In this document: in pieces, positions 11,164 through 37,125 of the stretch
Position numbering within the stretch: the stretch's first letter is position 1
Layout: each line of letters begins with the position of its first letter
Source: an uncultured Gammaproteobacteria bacterium
GTDB taxonomy: Bacteria; Pseudomonadota; Gammaproteobacteria; Immundisolibacterales; Immundisolibacteraceae
DNA length: 40,505 nt
Direction of reading: 5' to 3'
NCBI GenBank assembly: GCA_913060775.1
Contig: CAJXVN010000003.1
Location: forward strand, 1 to 40,505
Program-made: the position numbers and the translations under genes
The notes under the pieces: generated by a model
Databases searched by the model: none
Told to the model about the DNA's origin: nothing
The model's input: only the letters and a program-made list of their open reading frames with translations

Positions 11164-12282
11164 ATGGGCAAAGTTGAACCGATCTCCACCCAGCACCGCT
11201 TTAGCGAAGAGAACGTTCGCGCAGGGGCACGCAACCTGCTGATCAACGGCGCTGGCGTTACAACCGGCACCGAAGTACTTATCCTGAATCAGCCGGGGCT
11301 GGTCGAACCGGCGGTGGCCGACATTATCGAGGAGGAAGCCCGCGCCCTGGGCGCCACGGTATACGTGATGTGGGCCGGCAGCGTTAAAGGACCTGAAGAA
11401 CTGCCCGGTCCGGCGATGGCGGCGATGCAAAATTGCGAAGTGACCATATTCAACCACATGCTCGCCGGCCTGCTACGGTTAATTCCGTTTGATGGCACGG
11501 GTCTGAAGCTCCTCAATTTCTGCACCACCTGGGACACGCTGGGCAGCGAATTCGCCCGCGTCCATTACCGGGTAATGATGGAAGTAATGCAGTATTTCGG
11601 CCCCAAACTCGCGGCTGAATCTAGCTACCGCATCACCTGTCCACTGGGGACCGATTACTACGGCGACATGGAAACTCCGCCGGCCACTGCAAAGAAAAAA
11701 GGCGATACCGGAGACGGTTTTAGCTTGCGCACCTTTCCAATCAGCGTCAGCCCGCCGGTGATGAGCATGAAAGCCAATGGCAAGCTGGCAATACGGTGGC
11801 TGACCCCGGCCGGGATTCACGAGTTTGACGAACCGGGGATTAGCCTGCCCAGCCCGGTGCTCGCGACCATTAAAGATGGCCGCATGGTCGATTTCGACGG
11901 AGCCGATGATGCGGTGGCAGAGCTACGGCGGTTTCTGGAAAAAATTGGTGACCTGACCGACAAAGATGGTTACATCATCAACTCCTGGCATGCAGGCACC
12001 AACCCCCGCTGTTTTGCCCACGTTACGCCGGAGGAAAACCTGGATGCCTGGATGTACATGATCCACGGAAATCCCCGTATTGTTCACCTGCACACCGTGG
12101 GTACCGCACCCCCCGGTGAAATGTCGATCCCGATAGTCGATCCAACCATCCGGTACGGCGATAAAACCTTCTGGAATGCAGGTAAACTGGTAATCCTTGA
12201 CGACCCCGAAGTTCGCGAACTGGTAGCCAAATACCAGGACCCGGATGAGGCCCTGTTTGTGGACGACAACATCGGCGTATAG
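11164..12282 (+). CDS. M29-fold metalloprotein, NicX-like (possible ring-cleaving dioxygenase)
   Basis: 372 aa, no signal peptide, so cytoplasmic; a good AGGAG ribosome site precedes the ATG. The C-terminal half has a layout recalling M29 aminopeptidases and their relative NicX (2,5-dihydroxypyridine 5,6-dioxygenase): AGTNPRCFAHVTPEENL (near 280-295), HGNPRIVHLHTVG, then IPIVDPTIRYGD. The histidines and acids there could ligate a metal. The N-terminal half (GAGVTTGTEVLILNQPGLVEP, EEARALGATVYVMWAG) is a Rossmann-like alpha/beta domain, also as in M29. It begins a four-gene run with a DszB-like protein and a flavin reductase, which favours catabolism over peptide cleavage. Family placement is by recalled motif pattern only; substrate unknown. 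Confidence 0.55.
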   Translation: MGKVEPISTQHRFSEENVRAGARNLLINGAGVTTGTEVLILNQPGLVEPAVADIIEEEARALGATVYVMWAGSVKGPEELPGPAMAAMQNCEVTIFNHMLAGLLRLIPFDGTGLKLLNFCTTWDTLGSEFARVHYRVMMEVMQYFGPKLAAESSYRITCPLGTDYYGDMETPPATAKKKGDTGDGFSLRTFPISVSPPVMSMKANGKLAIRWLTPAGIHEFDEPGISLPSPVLATIKDGRMVDFDGADDAVAELRRFLEKIGDLTDKDGYIINSWHAGTNPRCFAHVTPEENLDAWMYMIHGNPRIVHLHTVGTAPPGEMSIPIVDPTIRYGDKTFWNAGKLVILDDPEVRELVAKYQDPDEALFVDDNIGV

Positions 12283-12316
12283 CGCCGTTTAATGAATAAA
12301 GAGAAGCTGATAATCA

Positions 12317-13372
12317 ATGAGTAACACAATCTGGTACACCCGCTGTCCGGTCCCCACCGCATCCGGTATCGCCAAGCAACACGATCGTTTTAACGAGGCC
12401 TTCGCCGACAGCGGCTGGCAGGTACGCAATATTCGCGAGCGCGGCACGGATGGCACTAGCCTGAACACCCATTTCAGCCACGACCTGGATGATTCGTTCC
12501 GTGAGGGCGGCGGCTCTCCGCCGGTCTGGGCTCGGGCCAACGGCGCCGATACCTCCCTGCTTGGGGTCTGTTTTATTGAAGAGACGCTGGGACTGTTCGT
12601 CCGTGCGGATGACGATTCCATTCAGACCGTCCCCGACCTGGTGGGCAAACGGCTGGCACTGCCTGACTGGCCCGAACTGATCATGAACTTTTTCCGGTTT
12701 TCTGCGGAAAAAGCCTTTGTATCGGCCCTGCAGCTGGAAGGCATCCCCGAAAGCGAAGCCAATTTTGTCGATGTCGTCGAGACCGGCGACCATTTTCAAC
12801 TGCTTAACCCCACTTTTACCGACGGCTCCGATCGCACGCTTGCCTCCTACTACCACTGCCAGATGGAAGCGCTCCTCAATGGTGAGGTGGATGCGATTTT
12901 TGCCAAGGGTGGCGAAATTGCTGCCATGCAGGCCGAAAGCGGCGGTCGCCTGCGCATGCTCACCAACCTGATGGATGCCAAACCCATGTGGGCCAAGGTC
13001 AACAACGCCACTCCACGCATCCTCACGGTCAGTAATTCGCTGGTTAGAAGCAACCCGGATAAAGTGGTTACCTACGCTCGTACCCTGTTACAGGCCGCCA
13101 ACTGGGCCCAGCAGAATCACGCGGAAGCGGACGTGGCCATGGCCTCCGAAACCGGCGTTGCGCCTGCCGACATCCATACCTATTACACCCGCGACATCTA
13201 CGACAAGCTCGCGCCGGAGCTGAGCGTTAAAATGATCGATGCCGTCGAAGTCCTGAAAACCTTCCTCTTTGAGCACGGTTATATCGACAACAATTTCTCC
13301 ACCGATGAATGGATGGCCAAAGAGCTGTTACAGGAAGCCTACCGACTGGAAGGCATGCCCTGGCGCGACTAA
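12317..13372 (+). CDS. DszB-like desulfinase homologue (periplasmic-binding-protein fold enzyme)
   Basis: 351 aa, no signal peptide. The N-terminus TIWYTRCPVPTASGIA matches the DszB segment around its nucleophile (YSNCPVPNA), placing the cysteine at residue 10. Further on, HFSHDLDDSFREGGGSPP aligns with the DszB stretch holding its other two catalytic residues: His52 and Arg62 here, 10 residues apart as in DszB. DszB releases sulfite from 2'-hydroxybiphenyl-2-sulfinate in dibenzothiophene desulfurization and has the fold of SsuA/NitT-type binding proteins. Absence of a signal peptide and of any ABC transporter gene nearby argues for an enzyme. Later parts (GEVDAIFAKGGEIAAMQA, VSNSLVRSNPDKVVTYARTL) also follow DszB. 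The substrate need not be a biphenyl sulfinate. Confidence 0.7.
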   Translation: MSNTIWYTRCPVPTASGIAKQHDRFNEAFADSGWQVRNIRERGTDGTSLNTHFSHDLDDSFREGGGSPPVWARANGADTSLLGVCFIEETLGLFVRADDDSIQTVPDLVGKRLALPDWPELIMNFFRFSAEKAFVSALQLEGIPESEANFVDVVETGDHFQLLNPTFTDGSDRTLASYYHCQMEALLNGEVDAIFAKGGEIAAMQAESGGRLRMLTNLMDAKPMWAKVNNATPRILTVSNSLVRSNPDKVVTYARTLLQAANWAQQNHAEADVAMASETGVAPADIHTYYTRDIYDKLAPELSVKMIDAVEVLKTFLFEHGYIDNNFSTDEWMAKELLQEAYRLEGMPWRD

Positions 13373-13408
13373 AATCACCCAACCCCCCTCTAACGGAATC
13401 CAGTCAAC

Positions 13409-13885
13409 ATGGACTCAAAAACACTTCGCAATTTATTCGGCCAGTTTGCTACCGGCGTCACCGTTATTGGTAGCCACAATGGTGAGGGCGACAAGTTTGG
13501 CCTGACCGTCAACTCCTTCAGCTCTGTATCGCTGGATCCGCCTCTGGTCATGTTCTGCATCATTCGAAATTCCGGCAGTCTGGAACCAATTCAGCAATCG
13601 GAAAGCTTCAGCGTGAGTATTCTTGCCGCTGACCAGGAAAACATTTCCAACACCATGGCCAAAAAGGGCGGCAGCGAAAAATTTGATGACGTTGCCACCT
13701 TTACCGCAGAAACCGGTGCCCCCATTATCACGGGCAACATTGGCTGGCTCGACTGCAAACTCTGGAAACTCCACGACGGTGGCGACCATTTGATTGTCGT
13801 CGGCGAGGTAGTCGCCGGCGAAATCGGTGAAGGAGAGCCATTGTTATTTGCGGGCGGTCGATACGCCCGTCTGGCTAAAAACTAA
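13409..13885 (+). CDS. Flavin reductase-like protein (DszD/HpaC family)
   Basis: 158 aa of the flavin reductase domain: FGQFATGVTVIGS, FGLTVNSFSSVSLDPPLVMFCI, SVSILAADQENISN and the ending FAGGRYARL are the usual blocks. Such proteins supply reduced FMN or FAD to two-component monooxygenases, as DszD does for DszA and DszC. No monooxygenase gene is in this cassette, so the partner is elsewhere or this is a flavin-binding protein with another role. It starts 36 bp after the DszB-like gene and 66 bp before the small protein, in the same direction, so co-transcription is likely. The ribosome site is weak. Confidence 0.85.
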   Translation: MDSKTLRNLFGQFATGVTVIGSHNGEGDKFGLTVNSFSSVSLDPPLVMFCIIRNSGSLEPIQQSESFSVSILAADQENISNTMAKKGGSEKFDDVATFTAETGAPIITGNIGWLDCKLWKLHDGGDHLIVVGEVVAGEIGEGEPLLFAGGRYARLAKN

Positions 13886-13951
13886 CGGGGCAAAACCAAC
13901 CCCACCACTAGCTGCTACCATGAGGTTCCTGGCTAAACCAAGGAGACGACA

Positions 13952-14335
13952 ATGGCGACAGAAATTAGTTTGCAGGAACTGGCCCGTACACCCGGAGTTA
14001 TTGGGGCAGCTCGCTGGAAAGCGTCCCAGTACAACACCAATATGGCCGCGGCGCCGGTTCTGGTTGAGTCCGCCGGTGATATCGACAACGCCCGCGCCGA
14101 ACGGCTGGTAAACAACGCTGAAGTGGCCGGCATGTCGGTGATGGGCGTCGGCATGCTTAACAAAACAAACAACCCCGGCGATAAACGCAACGTCTTCCCG
14201 ATCGATTCTTATTACATCAACGGTCAGGACACCAGCATGATTGCCACCTTCAACCGGGTAGCGGTGCTGTTGGATAACGGCGTTGACTATGAAGTCAGGG
14301 AAATAATCGCAATGATGAACCAGATAGGTAACTAA
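13952..14335 (+). CDS. Small protein of possible roadblock/DUF2173-like fold
   Basis: 127 aa with an AAGGAG ribosome site 6 bp upstream, last gene of the run beginning at 11164. The start ISLQELARTPGVIGAARWKA and the end NRVAVLLDNGVDYEVREIIAMM recall the DUF2173/roadblock-LC7 pattern (short helix, strand 'PGVxxA', a strand-rich middle and a final helix). This comparison is from memory and weak. There is no signal peptide, membrane segment or cysteine, so it is probably a soluble partner or regulatory protein for the enzymes ahead of it. Function unknown. Confidence 0.75.
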   Translation: MATEISLQELARTPGVIGAARWKASQYNTNMAAAPVLVESAGDIDNARAERLVNNAEVAGMSVMGVGMLNKTNNPGDKRNVFPIDSYYINGQDTSMIATFNRVAVLLDNGVDYEVREIIAMMNQIGN

Positions 14336-14528: not shown

Positions 14529-14834
14529 TCATAGCCCGGTCGCTCCCGGCTCACCGTCGGTGATCACTATCTGCACCTGCGCCACCTCACTGCGCAGGCG
14601 CCGCGCATCCGCGTAAACTGGCGACTCGTAAAACGCTTTCGCGGCCTCAAAATCCGGGAACTCAACAACGATAGTGCGCCGCTCCTCTGGCTCGCCTTCT
14701 AGCGTCTCCGTCCGCCCACCGCGCACCAGAAACCTGCCACCAAACTGCGCAATAATGCCCGGTGTGCGGGCCATATAAGCCGCGTAGGCATCTGCATCAC
14801 TCACTGCTGCACGGTAAATCAGGTATGCCGCCAT
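14529..14834 (-). CDS. DUF1330 family protein
   Basis: 101 aa with the dimeric alpha/beta-barrel pattern of DUF1330: YLIYRAAVSDADAYAAYMARTPGIIAQFGGRFLVRGG, then TIVVEFPDFEAAKAFYESPVYADARRLR. The family is common in Proteobacteria and of unknown function; the fold resembles muconolactone isomerase and antibiotic monooxygenase-like proteins. The ATG at 14834 is preceded by an AGGA site. It reads in the same direction as the DUF1461 gene 27 bp upstream. Confidence 0.85.
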   Translation of the reverse strand: MAAYLIYRAAVSDADAYAAYMARTPGIIAQFGGRFLVRGGRTETLEGEPEERRTIVVEFPDFEAAKAFYESPVYADARRLRSEVAQVQIVITDGEPGATGL

Positions 14835-21752: not shown

Positions 21753-22322
21753 CTAACGACCCATCCCATAAAACTCATCATTCGGCCGCATGCTCAGCAT
21801 GTTCGCCAGGCGGTTAGAGAGACAAAAGAACGCCGCAATAGCCCCAATATCCCAGATATCTTCGTCGTCAAAACCGTGACTACGCAGGGTTTCGTAATCA
21901 TCGTCGCCAATTTCGTCGGAACTAAAACCAACGGTCATGGCAAAGTCGAGCATGGCTTTCTGTTTATCGGTAATGTCGGCTTTGCGATAGTTAATCGCTA
22001 CCTGGTCGGCAATCAGCGGGTTTTTAGCAACGATGCGCAGAATCGCCCCGTGGGCCACCACGCAATACTGGCACTGATTGCCGCCGCTGACAGTCACCAC
22101 GATCATCTCTTTTTCTGCCCGGGTAAGGTTGCCTTTGCGCAGCATCACCGCGTCGTGCATGGCAAAAAAGCCGCGCCACTCATCAGGACGGTGGGCCAGA
22201 GCGAGGAATACATTGGGAATGAAGCCGGTTTTTTCCTGCACGGCTTCAATCTGTTCGCGTATGTCCTCGGGTAAATCGGCGAGATCCGGGATCGGAAACC
22301 GACTGACAGGGGGATTGCTCAT
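21753..22322 (-). CDS. AhpD-like / carboxymuconolactone decarboxylase-family protein
   Basis: 189 aa of the alkylhydroperoxidase-D fold, peroxidase-related subgroup. The redox motif CQYCVVAHG is present with the preceding glutamate in RAEKEMIVVTVSGGNQC, as in AhpD (E...CxxCxxxH). The start LADLPEDIREQIEAVQEKTGFIPNVFLALAHRP is the subgroup's usual N-terminus. Likely a peroxide- or hydroperoxide-linked thiol enzyme. AAGGAG precedes the ATG at 22322. It lies 14 bp downstream of the sulfatase gene in the same direction, so the two are probably co-transcribed. Confidence 0.9.
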   Translation of the reverse strand: MSNPPVSRFPIPDLADLPEDIREQIEAVQEKTGFIPNVFLALAHRPDEWRGFFAMHDAVMLRKGNLTRAEKEMIVVTVSGGNQCQYCVVAHGAILRIVAKNPLIADQVAINYRKADITDKQKAMLDFAMTVGFSSDEIGDDDYETLRSHGFDDEDIWDIGAIAAFFCLSNRLANMLSMRPNDEFYGMGR

Positions 22323-22336
22323 TGCTACTCCTTAAT

Positions 22337-24007
22337 TTATTGAGTGACCATTTTTTTACTGCCCGCACCGAACACCGGTCGTTCGGGCAGCACAATGCCG
22401 GTTCTGGCGGCATAACGCTGCCAGGCCTGGATGAGCGCCTGCAATCGCTCCGGCTCCTCGGCCGCTAAATCATTGGTTTCACCGGGATCAATGGCGAGGT
22501 TAAACAACTGCCAGGTCGCTGTGCCAAAAGGCCGATTGATATTGGATATTTTCCAGTCACCTTTGCGCAGTGCCTGCATGCCAAACAGCTCAAAACCGAA
22601 CTCGGCGTCGGGGAGATGCACGGCGTTGGATTCACCGCGCAGCACGGGCAGCATGGAGCGGCCCTGAACTGGCAACACGGCCTGGCCATTGTAGTGGAGT
22701 GGGGCAGTTATGTCCGCCAGCTCAAGCACGGTGGGCATGATGTCCTGCACCGTACTGATGGCGTTAATGGGCCGGTCCGCTGCGCCGACGCCCGGGCCAG
22801 CGACTATTAATGGCGAGCGCACGCCACCCTCACTAATAAACAGCTTATGCAGCGCAAACGGCGCCGTGCCCGCCAGTGCCCAGCCCGGACCAGTGGATGG
22901 ACGCGACCCCTTGCGACCAAGGTTCTCCAGCCGATTATCCGAATTTTGCTCAACCCAGTTATCCGGCACCAGCGGGTTTTGCTGCAACAGAATGCCATTG
23001 GCACCATTATCGGAAATAAACATTATCAGGGTACGGTCGTAACGACCCTCGCGTTTGAGGGTATCGATCACCTTGCCAACGTTGTGGTCCAGGTTCTCCA
23101 CCATCGCCGCGTAAAGCTCCATTGCCCGCGAGGAATAAACCTGCTCGTCAGGGGTGAGCTTGTCCCACGGTCTGACGTGCGGAGGCAGGGGCGCAGCCAG
23201 ATCAGCGTCGTCCAGCAGACCCAGCTCAACTAGCCGGGCAATGCGGGTCGCCCGGAGCTGGTCATAACCCGCGTCGTACTTGCCCCGGTAACGGTCGATC
23301 CAGTGATCGGGCACGTGGAGTGGGTCGTGGGGTGCGGTAAAGGCAAGATAGGCAAATAGCGGCTGCTGCCTCGGCGTATCACTGATCCAGGTCGATAATT
23401 TATCGGCATAAAAATCGGATGAATAAAACTGATCGGGCACGTGAACCTGTTTACCGTCATGTCGATAAATTGGCAGATAGTTCGGGGCGTAGGGGGCTTC
23501 ATCGCCAAAGTGACTCGCCGCTCCGCGAAGCATGGCGAACGAGTGATCAAAACCAAACTGGGAGGGATCCTGTGCCGGCTCCAGCCCCAGATGCCATTTG
23601 CCGGCCATCAGGGTTTTGTAACCGCTGTCATTAAGCAGTTGTGGCAAGGTCACTGCCCGGCTGTTGAGGTGACCCTCGTACCCGGGCACACCAATCTGAT
23701 TCGGGCTGATCAACTCAATCATGGTCCCCAGCCCGACCATGTGATGGTCGATGCCGGTCAGCAGCATTGATCGAGTCGGCGAACATGTAGATGCCGTGTA
23801 AAACTGGGCGAACCGCTGCCCACGAGCGGCAAGGGCATCCAGATTAGGCGTGTGAATCTCGCCACCAAATCCGCCCCAGTCGGTATAGCCCATATCGTCT
23901 GCCACGATCAGCAGGATGTCGGGCCGAGCCGGAGCGCTCTGAATCGGTACCGGAATCAACCCAAAAATGATGAATGCAGCCAGCCACTGCAGCGCAAACC
24001 TGTTCAC
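22337..24007 (-). CDS. Sulfatase (arylsulfatase family), secreted, GTG start
   Basis: 556 aa of the alkaline-phosphatase superfamily. The signal peptide spans about residues 1-24. Calcium ligands are in IVADDMGYTDWGG (Asp37/38). The sulfatase signature is CSPTRSMLLTG, with Cys75 the residue normally converted to formylglycine. The later metal motif LIMFISDNGANG is intact, and the C-terminal subdomain (MQALRKGDWKI, QLFNLAIDPGETNDLA) is typical. It should hydrolyse a sulfate ester in the periplasm or outside the cell. The GTG at 24007 is supported by an upstream GGAGAGG. A formylglycine-generating enzyme is not in the window. Confidence 0.94.
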   Translation of the reverse strand: MNRFALQWLAAFIIFGLIPVPIQSAPARPDILLIVADDMGYTDWGGFGGEIHTPNLDALAARGQRFAQFYTASTCSPTRSMLLTGIDHHMVGLGTMIELISPNQIGVPGYEGHLNSRAVTLPQLLNDSGYKTLMAGKWHLGLEPAQDPSQFGFDHSFAMLRGAASHFGDEAPYAPNYLPIYRHDGKQVHVPDQFYSSDFYADKLSTWISDTPRQQPLFAYLAFTAPHDPLHVPDHWIDRYRGKYDAGYDQLRATRIARLVELGLLDDADLAAPLPPHVRPWDKLTPDEQVYSSRAMELYAAMVENLDHNVGKVIDTLKREGRYDRTLIMFISDNGANGILLQQNPLVPDNWVEQNSDNRLENLGRKGSRPSTGPGWALAGTAPFALHKLFISEGGVRSPLIVAGPGVGAADRPINAISTVQDIMPTVLELADITAPLHYNGQAVLPVQGRSMLPVLRGESNAVHLPDAEFGFELFGMQALRKGDWKISNINRPFGTATWQLFNLAIDPGETNDLAAEEPERLQALIQAWQRYAARTGIVLPERPVFGAGSKKMVTQ

Positions 24008-32437: not shown

Positions 32438-34225
32438 TCAGTGCAATGTTAAGGATATGGGGTCACTCCCCGGCGTTTCGAAAAACCCCAGGAAACGCTC
32501 CAACTGCGCTCGGTTTCCCCTCAGCGCGATGTCACCCCGATCGATGGCCTGCGTAAAGCTGTCCTTACCCAGCATTATTTGATCAAACACTGGTTTGTTG
32601 AGAGATAACACCAAATCGGTGTTATCTGGAAGCCGGTTCGCGAATTCACAAATACCACGCCGTATCGTTAATACCATTTGCTGCGACAAATCGGTAAAGG
32701 CAAAACCGACAGACATGTCGACAGAAAGTGTTTCTTCAGCCTTCAGGCGACTGGTCCAGGATCTCAAGCTGGCCGCCGGAGACATCTCAGCAATAATATC
32801 TGGCGGGACAAATACATTGGCCATCTTTTTCGCCCCAACGGCCCTGCCCATGAGTCCCTCCAGCTCTTTTGCTGAGCTCAAATACCAGTTACGCCAGTTG
32901 ATGTTCATATTGGCATAGCCAAGCTGACGAAAAGCATTTGCCTTGAGCTGCCGAGCCGTTTCATCGGCATGATCAATGCGTATCAGGTGGGTTGCCAGCT
33001 CAGCAGCCCATTGGTAATCACCCCGGTCATACGCGCCACCAGCCTCGCCCAGGAGCCGGTCTCGACCGCCCATTAACGCGACCAGACGGCGAGATTTTTC
33101 CTTAACGGGAACGGGATCAAGGGCGACTGGATCCCCTTGGTACCAACCCAGATAGCCCGAATAAATTGCTCTTACCGTCTGCTTTACGGTGCCGTAATAT
33201 TGCCGGAGGTAAGGCGAATATTCGTAAAGATGCTCCGGTAATTTCACCCGTTCGACCAACTCATCGGGGGTTAGCCCCTTGTTCATGTAGCGCACGGTTT
33301 GGTCGTGTACAAACTGAATGCCGTCGCGGGTCATGCGCAGCACCTCCTCAACTTTTTCAGCCCCATAAACGGGCTGGCCGTGGGCAGGTACCAGGTAGTG
33401 TGCGTTTAACTGGCGCAGGCGATCAATACTCTCCACCCACTGCACCGGGTCACGAAATTTGGAACCACGAAGCGTATACACATTAGGGAACGCCGGCCCC
33501 TGAATAACCTCGGTATCGATCAGCACACGACTGGCCGGTAGATAAATGGCCAGCTCATCCGGGGCCTCACTGGGCACGTGCATCATCTCCAGATCAACAC
33601 CGGCGATGGTTACGGCCAGAAACTCATCGACTGTATTAGTTGGCGCGATAAACGTACCCGGCCCACCCGCGGTAAGCAGCGGGCCAATGCCAACATTCAT
33701 ATCCTTCGTATCGGCGCCGTCGAGGAACATGCCAAACGTATAGCCTGCGCGGATGCCCTGAATCGGCGCGAGAATATTGCTCTCATCCACCAGCAGCCGC
33801 ATGAGTCTGGCCTGGGCATAAATGGCCACCTCGCCGGACTGAACCTGAGCCTGGCTCACAAACCCCTTGATGCCGCTAATATGATCCTGGTGAAAATGGC
33901 TATAAATCACCGCCACTACAGGCTTGTCAGTAATTTTTCGAAACTCTCGCAACACCTCGCGGCTGGTCACCGGGCTCATTCCCGCATCGACCAGAATGAT
34001 GCCGTCATCGCCTTCAATCATCACCGTACCCGCGACATTCCAGCCCACAGCGCTGTAGACATTGTCGGCAACTTTGTAGATTTTTTTAACAAAATGCTCC
34101 GTATGCTGCTTAAGTTCAGCGTTTATTGCTGGTGCTACCTGGGCCGCTATCTGCGCATGAACACCCCTGCCTGTAAGACCCGCCATAAGGGCACACAGAA
34201 TTGAAACGAACACGCTGGTTTTCAT
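32438..34225 (-). CDS. Alkyl sulfatase, SdsA1-like, metallo-beta-lactamase fold
   Basis: 595 aa with a signal peptide (about 1-24), so exported. The zinc site starts at SHFHQDH (His110, His112, Asp114, His115) and continues with the glutamates in PSEAPDE and DTEVIQGPAFPN, matching SdsA1. A dimerization domain follows (YRGDYQWAAELATHL-type helices; YANMNINWRNWYLSSAKEL), then an SCP2-like C-terminal domain that binds the alkyl chain (about 480-595). The enzyme should split primary or secondary alkyl sulfates. GGGGAG precedes the ATG at 34225. Divergent from the DUF1329 gene; a palindrome lies between them. Confidence 0.92.
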   Translation of the reverse strand: MKTSVFVSILCALMAGLTGRGVHAQIAAQVAPAINAELKQHTEHFVKKIYKVADNVYSAVGWNVAGTVMIEGDDGIILVDAGMSPVTSREVLREFRKITDKPVVAVIYSHFHQDHISGIKGFVSQAQVQSGEVAIYAQARLMRLLVDESNILAPIQGIRAGYTFGMFLDGADTKDMNVGIGPLLTAGGPGTFIAPTNTVDEFLAVTIAGVDLEMMHVPSEAPDELAIYLPASRVLIDTEVIQGPAFPNVYTLRGSKFRDPVQWVESIDRLRQLNAHYLVPAHGQPVYGAEKVEEVLRMTRDGIQFVHDQTVRYMNKGLTPDELVERVKLPEHLYEYSPYLRQYYGTVKQTVRAIYSGYLGWYQGDPVALDPVPVKEKSRRLVALMGGRDRLLGEAGGAYDRGDYQWAAELATHLIRIDHADETARQLKANAFRQLGYANMNINWRNWYLSSAKELEGLMGRAVGAKKMANVFVPPDIIAEMSPAASLRSWTSRLKAEETLSVDMSVGFAFTDLSQQMVLTIRRGICEFANRLPDNTDLVLSLNKPVFDQIMLGKDSFTQAIDRGDIALRGNRAQLERFLGFFETPGSDPISLTLH

Positions 34226-36117: not shown

Positions 36118-37125
36118 TTACCTGCCGTAATGTTCGTCATAGGGGAAATCGCAACCCAGTTCAGCGAGCCCCCTGCGGCAGTAATCATCGATAAAGGCCT
36201 GCTGTTCACCGCTAAGCATATCGCCTGAACTGCCTTGCTTGCCCTGTCGAATCATCGCGCCGCCGGGGCGGGCAAAAGGGGAGACTTCGCCGGGGTAAAA
36301 CTTGTGATCGATCGCCTTCATCGACTGGTAAGACGTCAGCTCGGCGATCCGCTCCACCTCAGCATCGGTCAACTCCACAGCCATGAGTTCGGCAACCTTT
36401 CGAATCATGCCCTGGGGGTCGGCCATCATCTGCTCATAGGTCACAAACAGCACGTTGTCGCGCTCGCGCCAGGGCCAGTAGCTGGCCACGAACCGGTGCC
36501 AGGGCCCAAAGGCGGCGCCGTCTGACATGCACTGCTTGACCCAGGTGGCGGTGGAGGGGATCAGCGGCCCCAGTAACATGCTGCCGAAAAAATGATGGGC
36601 AGAAACCACCACGTCTTTCGGGTCACGCACCACACAGATGTATTTGGCCTGTTCGCTGTAGGGTACAAATTCCGCACGGCCATGCGTTTTGATGACTCGT
36701 TGACCGGTTTTGGAGCGTTTGATGGGCCGCGGGTCACGCAGGGCAATGGTCGTCTCCTGCGACGGGCAATCGGCCCAGGGGGCGACATCAAGAATATCGT
36801 TAAACTCGCCGGTGCCTTTTTCTGCCACCTGATAAGCAACGTACATCAACCAGTTGGTGCCGCTCTTGTAATAGGAGCAGACAAACACGTCGTGTTCGGT
36901 AGGGGTGTAGTCCACAAAGGCCTTATCAATGGCGGAGTCAAACATGCCGGCGAAAGGCTTGAAAAAATGGCGGAACAGCCATGCCTCAAAGCCCAGCGCC
37001 CGGGCGATCGCAAAGACGCCCCGTAGTAACCAGGTGAGGGGCGTCATCAGTTTTCCCTGCCGGGCCACGGCATCAAGCGCCTGTTTACGGGCAGCGGCGA
37101 CATCGGCAAATTCGTAACTGGACAT
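36118..37125 (-). CDS. PAPS-dependent sulfotransferase family protein
   Basis: 335 aa. The 5'-phosphosulfate loop is DVFVCSYYKSGTNWLMYVAY (K in YKSGTNW) and the 3'-phosphate site is CVVRDPKDVVVSAHHFFGS. The late block LTSYQSMKAIDHKFYPGEVSPF resembles cytosolic steroid/alcohol sulfotransferases. It should move sulfate from PAPS to an alcohol, phenol or amine. A hydrophobic stretch near residues 25-45 (WLLRGVFAIARALGFEAWLF) is not a clear signal peptide. The ATG at 37125 has GGAG 6 bp upstream; the open frame extends further but without family-like sequence. Confidence 0.92.
   Translation of the reverse strand: MSSYEFADVAAARKQALDAVARQGKLMTPLTWLLRGVFAIARALGFEAWLFRHFFKPFAGMFDSAIDKAFVDYTPTEHDVFVCSYYKSGTNWLMYVAYQVAEKGTGEFNDILDVAPWADCPSQETTIALRDPRPIKRSKTGQRVIKTHGRAEFVPYSEQAKYICVVRDPKDVVVSAHHFFGSMLLGPLIPSTATWVKQCMSDGAAFGPWHRFVASYWPWRERDNVLFVTYEQMMADPQGMIRKVAELMAVELTDAEVERIAELTSYQSMKAIDHKFYPGEVSPFARPGGAMIRQGKQGSSGDMLSGEQQAFIDDYCRRGLAELGCDFPYDEHYGR

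Follow-up and report, generated by a model that had tools for sequence, protein, structure and literature searches.

A conserved gene group of Immundisolibacteraceae that joins a DszB-type protein to a distant relative of the dioxygenase NicX

Introduction

Most of what is known of DszB-type enzymes comes from sulfur scavenging and fuel desulfurization, and the Immundisolibacteraceae are a family known for degrading oil-type aromatic compounds. To our knowledge, it is poorly understood what further becomes of thiophene-type pollutants once the first ring has been cleaved. Here, we describe a group of four genes, termed A to D, in a 40,505-nucleotide stretch of DNA (GenBank contig CAJXVN010000003.1, in the following 'the window'), which is contig C3 of a 3.06 Mb metagenome-assembled genome (MAG) of the Immundisolibacteraceae (Gammaproteobacteria). 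Among named genomes, it is closest to Immundisolibacteraceae MAGs and to the Gammaproteobacteria MAG isolate B29_G4. Three of these genes, encoding a distant NicX relative (A), a predicted DszB-type protein (B) and a flavin reductase (C), recur together throughout the family genomes compared and may act in the catabolism of a heteroaromatic, probably organosulfur, intermediate.

The closest described systems each resemble a part of this group. In the 4S pathway, DszB is the desulfinase acting on 2'-hydroxybiphenyl-2-sulfinate, with the roles of its residues C27, H60, R70 and G73 having been described (PMC12168087); its gene adjoins dszC and a gene of the luciferase-like monooxygenase (LLM) type. 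BdsA of Gordonia terrae is a desulfinase encoded in the bdsABC operon, and the flavin mononucleotide (FMN)-dependent chemistry in this system needs a flavin reductase (PMC3868597). Compared by description rather than by sequence, the bdsABC operon includes its monooxygenases, whereas the group described here includes a flavin reductase but no monooxygenase. NicX, a 2,5-dihydroxypyridine 5,6-dioxygenase, binds iron via H265, S302, H318 and D320, with R293 in a supporting role (PMC7910607). Finally, HsaB, FerA and HpaC are flavin reductases of two-component monooxygenases. A search of the open-access literature (subscription papers being outside its reach) found no description of DszB and NicX together. 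As far as can be told from this literature, the gene combination and the altered NicX-type site are undescribed, the domains themselves being known or having known distant relatives.

Conservation of the gene group

All four open reading frames lie on the same strand, with intergenic gaps of only 34 bp (A/B), 36 bp (B/C) and 66 bp (C/D), just as seen in the original prediction, which had been made from the window sequence alone. In comparison with three same-genus MAGs, they are under strong purifying selection, with ratios of non-synonymous to synonymous substitution rates (dN/dS) of 0.03-0.13, i.e. 0.04-0.06 for A, 0.03-0.04 for B, 0.04-0.12 for C where computable (in one comparison dS was saturated) and 0.09-0.13 for D. 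All four are therefore real genes.

A, B and C are adjacent in 7/7 family genomes compared, which represent two genera with different flanking genes. The three same-genus MAGs share the complete A-B-C-D order and also the genes on either side of it. Three sister-genus genomes, where genes in the GC-rich DNA were called with codon-usage scoring, likewise have an unbroken A-B-C in this order, flanked by genes that by sequence are related to thiazole biosynthesis and thymidylate synthase (two genomes) or by a contig edge (the third). D is missing from the sister-genus cassette, with C being followed instead by a gene of the polyketide-cyclase/SRPBCC type (PF10604 in the copy tested). With A-B-C constant and D exchanged, the unit is thus A-B-C, with D as a genus-level addition. 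The original idea of a recurring group therefore holds for A-B-C, but not for the small partner as a fixed component.

Outside of the family, A homologues occur in Rhodobacteraceae, and B homologues with 30-34% identity in rhizobia, Burkholderia, Sphingobium and Streptomyces; none of the A and B loci inspected there in detail has the A-B pairing. A scan of genome contigs with A returned three loci only, all of the same genus. Among the annotated genes flanking the cassette, neither a DszA/DszC-like monooxygenase nor a sulfonate transporter was found, in line with the earlier statement that this is not a plain dsz operon.

Protein B: a DszB-type protein

By homology, B is a true DszB-type protein with a predicted intact active site. 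It aligns with DszB (PDB 2de2/2de3) along its length (phmmer, 8e-14), and a profile of 16 B members matches DszB with an E value of 2.4e-30, versus 2e-4 for SsuA. C10, H52, R62 and G65 of B align with C27, H60, R70 and G73 of DszB, and none of the 16 family copies deviates at C10, H52 or R62. A signal peptide is not visible at the N-terminus (MSNTIWYTRC). The proposal of a cytoplasmic DszB homologue that keeps Cys10, His52 and Arg62, also among its close relatives, is thereby corroborated. B also differs from DszB: its sequence is remote, it has no dszA or dszC neighbours, it comes in several paralogues per genome and its partner is a NicX-like protein.

In a phylogenetic tree, B joins DszB and the dsz-like relatives, and SsuA and other binding proteins fall elsewhere (support 87/94), even if long branches make its exact placement unsure. 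Grouping with transporter binding proteins, a concern voiced in the original prediction, was thus not observed. The family copies form a separate clade of their own (support 99/100) with several subgroups. B exceeds the cut-off of the NMT1 domain PF09084, as expected from the fold that it shares with binding proteins; against the SsuA model it reaches 61.7 bits, below the cut-off of 163.5, and there is no transporter among the adjacent genes.

In more distant homologues, the Cys/His/Arg set is kept in most but not all cases, the exceptions being some tandem copies with Ser for Cys, one of them also without the His, and one copy gapped at the His. Four loci outside of the family (L072, L081, L084 and L090) carry such tandem DszB-like genes, with Ser replacing the catalytic Cys in one copy and the Arg kept. 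Distant homologues adjoin LLM monooxygenases, ssuABC or a DszC-like gene of the acyl-CoA dehydrogenase family. For one search, the DszB query was assembled from the profile alignment with DszB. Within the family, some B paralogues lie beside Rieske dioxygenases. In a same-genus MAG one paralogue precedes Rieske alpha and beta genes of the biphenyl/benzene-dioxygenase type. In the window genome, two paralogues flank a gene for an aldolase of the dihydrodipicolinate synthase (DHDPS) type, with a glucose-methanol-choline (GMC) oxidoreductase gene beside it. A truncated B paralogue (G000:C13:9372-9617; L004, L048), whose 115-aa frame matches over the first 84 residues (57% identity), may be a gene remnant. 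At L161:4501-5436, another protein scoring below the cut-off of an SsuA-type model and having no obvious signal peptide is located near Rieske and LLM genes.

Protein A: a distant relative of NicX

Neither Pfam nor NCBIfam matched the window copy of A, relaxing the E value to 10 brought up neither a Pfam match nor any meaningful match in NCBIfam for 12 A members, and nothing credible emerged from single-sequence or profile searches against solved structures. Profile-profile alignment (hhalign) of the A family with NicX, however, yielded a probability of 97.3, an E value of 2e-11 and a score of 87.6 over 293 columns, using NicX homologues collected from plasmids and a NicX query identical to PDB 7cn3. 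The score was still 83.3 with the Immundisolibacteraceae members of A alone, whereas the controls stayed far lower, with 60 column shuffles at or below 26.2, the reversed profile at 13.6, the B family against NicX at 19.3 and M29 against NicX at 28.0. At the level of such profiles, A is a full-length distant NicX relative. An M29 peptidase identity was rejected, with hhalign giving a probability below 1 against M29 and no PF02073 match being found in the family genomes.

In this alignment, which is gapped in the metal-site region, the NicX ligands H265, S302, H318 and D320 correspond to H276, T/V/A311, E/D319 and S/W321 of A, and R293 to R305. S302, H318 and D320 are thus not kept; instead A features two additional invariant histidines, H308 and H310, to which none of the NicX ligands corresponds. 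Of the original 'NicX/M29-like' label, the NicX part stands at the level of the profile but not of the iron ligands.

The Rhodobacteraceae homologues of A are encoded close to a Rieske oxygenase (VanA type in the two cases tested) and a peroxidase-related/CMD gene, with several of these loci also being near a sarcosine-oxidase-like heterotetramer. Homarine or trigonelline catabolism was considered for these loci and set aside, as no paper naming these genes was found. In the sister genus, Rieske alpha and CMD genes also accompany a paralogue of A. The A tree resolves the cassette copies of each genus and this second sister-genus copy into three supported groups, with the joining of the three not resolved. 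The window itself encodes a CMD-family protein (PF02627, 1.9e-9) at 21753-22322 (minus strand), 7.4 kb downstream of the cassette. The earlier suggestion of a cyclic natural product as substrate found no support, with relatives and paralogues residing in contexts of aromatic catabolism (Rieske oxygenases, the CMD family, DHDPS-type aldolase).

Proteins C and D and possible partners in trans

As originally proposed, a flavin reductase follows the DszB-like gene: C matches PF01613 with an E value of 1.5e-41 (142.4 bits, cut-off 27). It also matches the models of FerA (5.5e-42) and HsaB (2.3e-41), yet remains below both equivalog cut-offs and, unlike the HsaB, FerA and HpaC systems, has no adjoining oxygenase component. 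Elsewhere in the window genome, however, there is an NtaA/DmoA monooxygenase (4.5e-169, above cut-off) as well as an SfnG/SsuD-like one (5e-75, below cut-off), both accompanied by Rieske genes, so C may have its partners in trans. PF08028 counts are too unspecific to single out a DszC.

D, like its homologues, aligns over its full length with DUF2173 (PF09941; E value 0.0093 for D) below the gathering score of 26.1 bits, a threshold reached by no member tested (16.7-21.6 bits). An AlphaFold2 model of D, with a predicted local distance difference test (pLDDT) score of 35 from a four-row alignment, is too poor to search with. On contig C4, 70 bp separate a paralogue of D (34% identity) from the HsaA-type oxygenase gene downstream of it, an arrangement that recurs in one same-genus MAG. 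Orthologues of this oxygenase (71-80%) are found in 5/7 family genomes, with no D homologue found beside the HsaA-type gene in the sister genus.

Discussion

We propose, with a probability of roughly 0.4, that A-B-C, with or without D, forms a catabolic module that handles a heteroaromatic and probably organosulfur intermediate and relies on reduced-flavin oxygenation in trans. C would supply reduced flavin to a monooxygenase encoded elsewhere, for which the NtaA/DmoA-family, SfnG/SsuD-like and HsaA-type enzymes are candidates. This monooxygenase, or a Rieske dioxygenase, would open or hydroxylate the heteroaromatic compound to yield an aromatic sulfinate, from which B would release sulfite by the Cys/His/Arg mechanism of DszB; a sulfinate is a plausible substrate of B. 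A would be a metal enzyme on a NicX fold, with H276, H308 and/or H310, and E319 as putative ligands, and would cleave the hydroxylated ring of this or a neighbouring intermediate. In one genus D, and in the other the SRPBCC protein, may have accessory or substrate-handling roles. Much bolder, and in our view rather improbable, is the extension that A with its rebuilt iron site represents a new class of ring-cleaving oxygenases and, together with B, an undescribed route of ring opening and sulfur removal within a single carbon-catabolic pathway, separate from 4S scavenging.

Several observations weigh against the proposal of a catabolic module. As the whole neighbourhood is syntenic in the same-genus genomes, it is solely the recurrence in the sister genus that is informative. 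Just one of the four iron ligands of NicX (H265) aligns with an identical residue in A, and an AlphaFold2 model of A (mean pLDDT 37, again from a four-row alignment) is too poor to test the metal site; given this model and the gapped alignment, the site has the status of a proposal. In those A loci of Rhodobacteraceae that were inspected, no B-like gene is annotated, several of them resemble loci for the catabolism of N-methyl compounds, and there is no link of A to organosulfur compounds outside of the Immundisolibacteraceae. Moreover, B stands in a separate clade and, in contrast to its distant homologues, lacks an adjoining monooxygenase, and may for these reasons act on something other than a sulfinate.

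This last point leads to the strongest alternative, which we regard as possible though doubtful, i.e. that B has the DszB fold but no longer desulfinates, with its Cys/His/Arg set being reused for cleaving another C-X or C-C bond, for instance by decarboxylation or by expelling a leaving group from a product of ring cleavage. The binding-protein superfamily includes decarboxylases, and besides the separate clade the paralogues next to Rieske dioxygenases or the DHDPS-type aldolase, rather than sulfonate genes, and the lack of a nearby sulfonate transporter would fit such a change. On the other hand, all four DszB active-site residues in the window copy of B, and the Cys/His/Arg set in every family copy, are what sulfinate-like chemistry predicts, and the closest homologues outside of the family reside in sulfur-scavenging clusters.

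It is unlikely that the genes form a 4S-like system for sulfur acquisition, with DszA and DszC equivalents encoded elsewhere and A being incidental. Flavin reductase C and the NtaA/DmoA-type and SfnG/SsuD-like enzymes in the genome agree with this scenario, as do the genes for enzymes of sulfur esters in the window, i.e. a sulfatase (22337-24007), an alkylsulfatase (32438-34225) and a sulfotransferase (36118-37125), all on the minus strand. Yet the candidate monooxygenases go along with Rieske genes, B has multiple paralogues, a sulfonate ABC transporter does not adjoin, and A is next to B in all 7 family genomes. Mere inherited synteny of genes serving different pathways could account for the conserved flanks within the genus and the absence of D from the unit in the sister genus, but is quite improbable with A-B-C staying together with short gaps despite different flanks. 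That B is a sulfonate- or nitrate-type transporter binding protein, as its PF09084 and weak SsuA matches might suggest, can practically be dismissed in view of its kept catalytic residues, its far better match to DszB and its position in the tree, the lack of a visible signal peptide and the absence of permease or ATPase genes nearby.

The B clade, with one member fixed beside a remote NicX relative and others beside Rieske dioxygenases, suggests that desulfination or a related bond cleavage takes place inside aromatic carbon catabolism. The cassette provides concrete candidate genes for later steps in the breakdown of thiophene-type pollutants, and family A, so far annotated as 'hypothetical protein', gains a putative fold and an active-site proposal.

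Other features of the window and of related loci

The coordinates of the genes and of the residues discussed above are compiled in table 1.

Table 1. Genes of the cassette and aligned residues, with positions in the window.
Feature	Position	Strand	Description	Basis
Gene A	11164-12282	+	372 aa; distant NicX (2,5-dihydroxypyridine dioxygenase) relative, changed putative metal site	
A His276	11989-11991	+	aligned to NicX ligand His265; invariant in A family	profile alignment
A R305-x-x-H308-x-H310	12076-12093	+	R305 aligned to NicX R293	profile alignment
A Glu319	12118-12120	+	Glu/Asp in family; aligned to NicX ligand His318	profile alignment
Gene B	12317-13372	+	351 aa; predicted cytoplasmic DszB-type (sulfinate desulfinase-like) protein	
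B Cys10	12344-12346	+	DszB Cys27	alignment
B His52	12470-12472	+	DszB His60	alignment
B Arg62 to Gly65	12500-12511	+	DszB Arg70 to Gly73	alignment
Gene C	13409-13885	+	158 aa; NAD(P)H:flavin reductase, HsaB/FerA/HpaC type	
Gene D	13952-14335	+	127 aa; small DUF2173-like protein, genus-specific cassette member	

Every same-genus locus has a DUF1330 gene convergent with D in the position seen in the window (14529-14834, minus strand). In one same-genus MAG (L017), an LLM gene on the opposite strand lies about 3 kb downstream of D, where the window has an aldo/keto reductase. Downstream of A-B-C and the SRPBCC gene in one sister-genus locus (L053:3825-6390), there are genes for a small [2Fe-2S] subunit and a large molybdopterin hydroxylase subunit.

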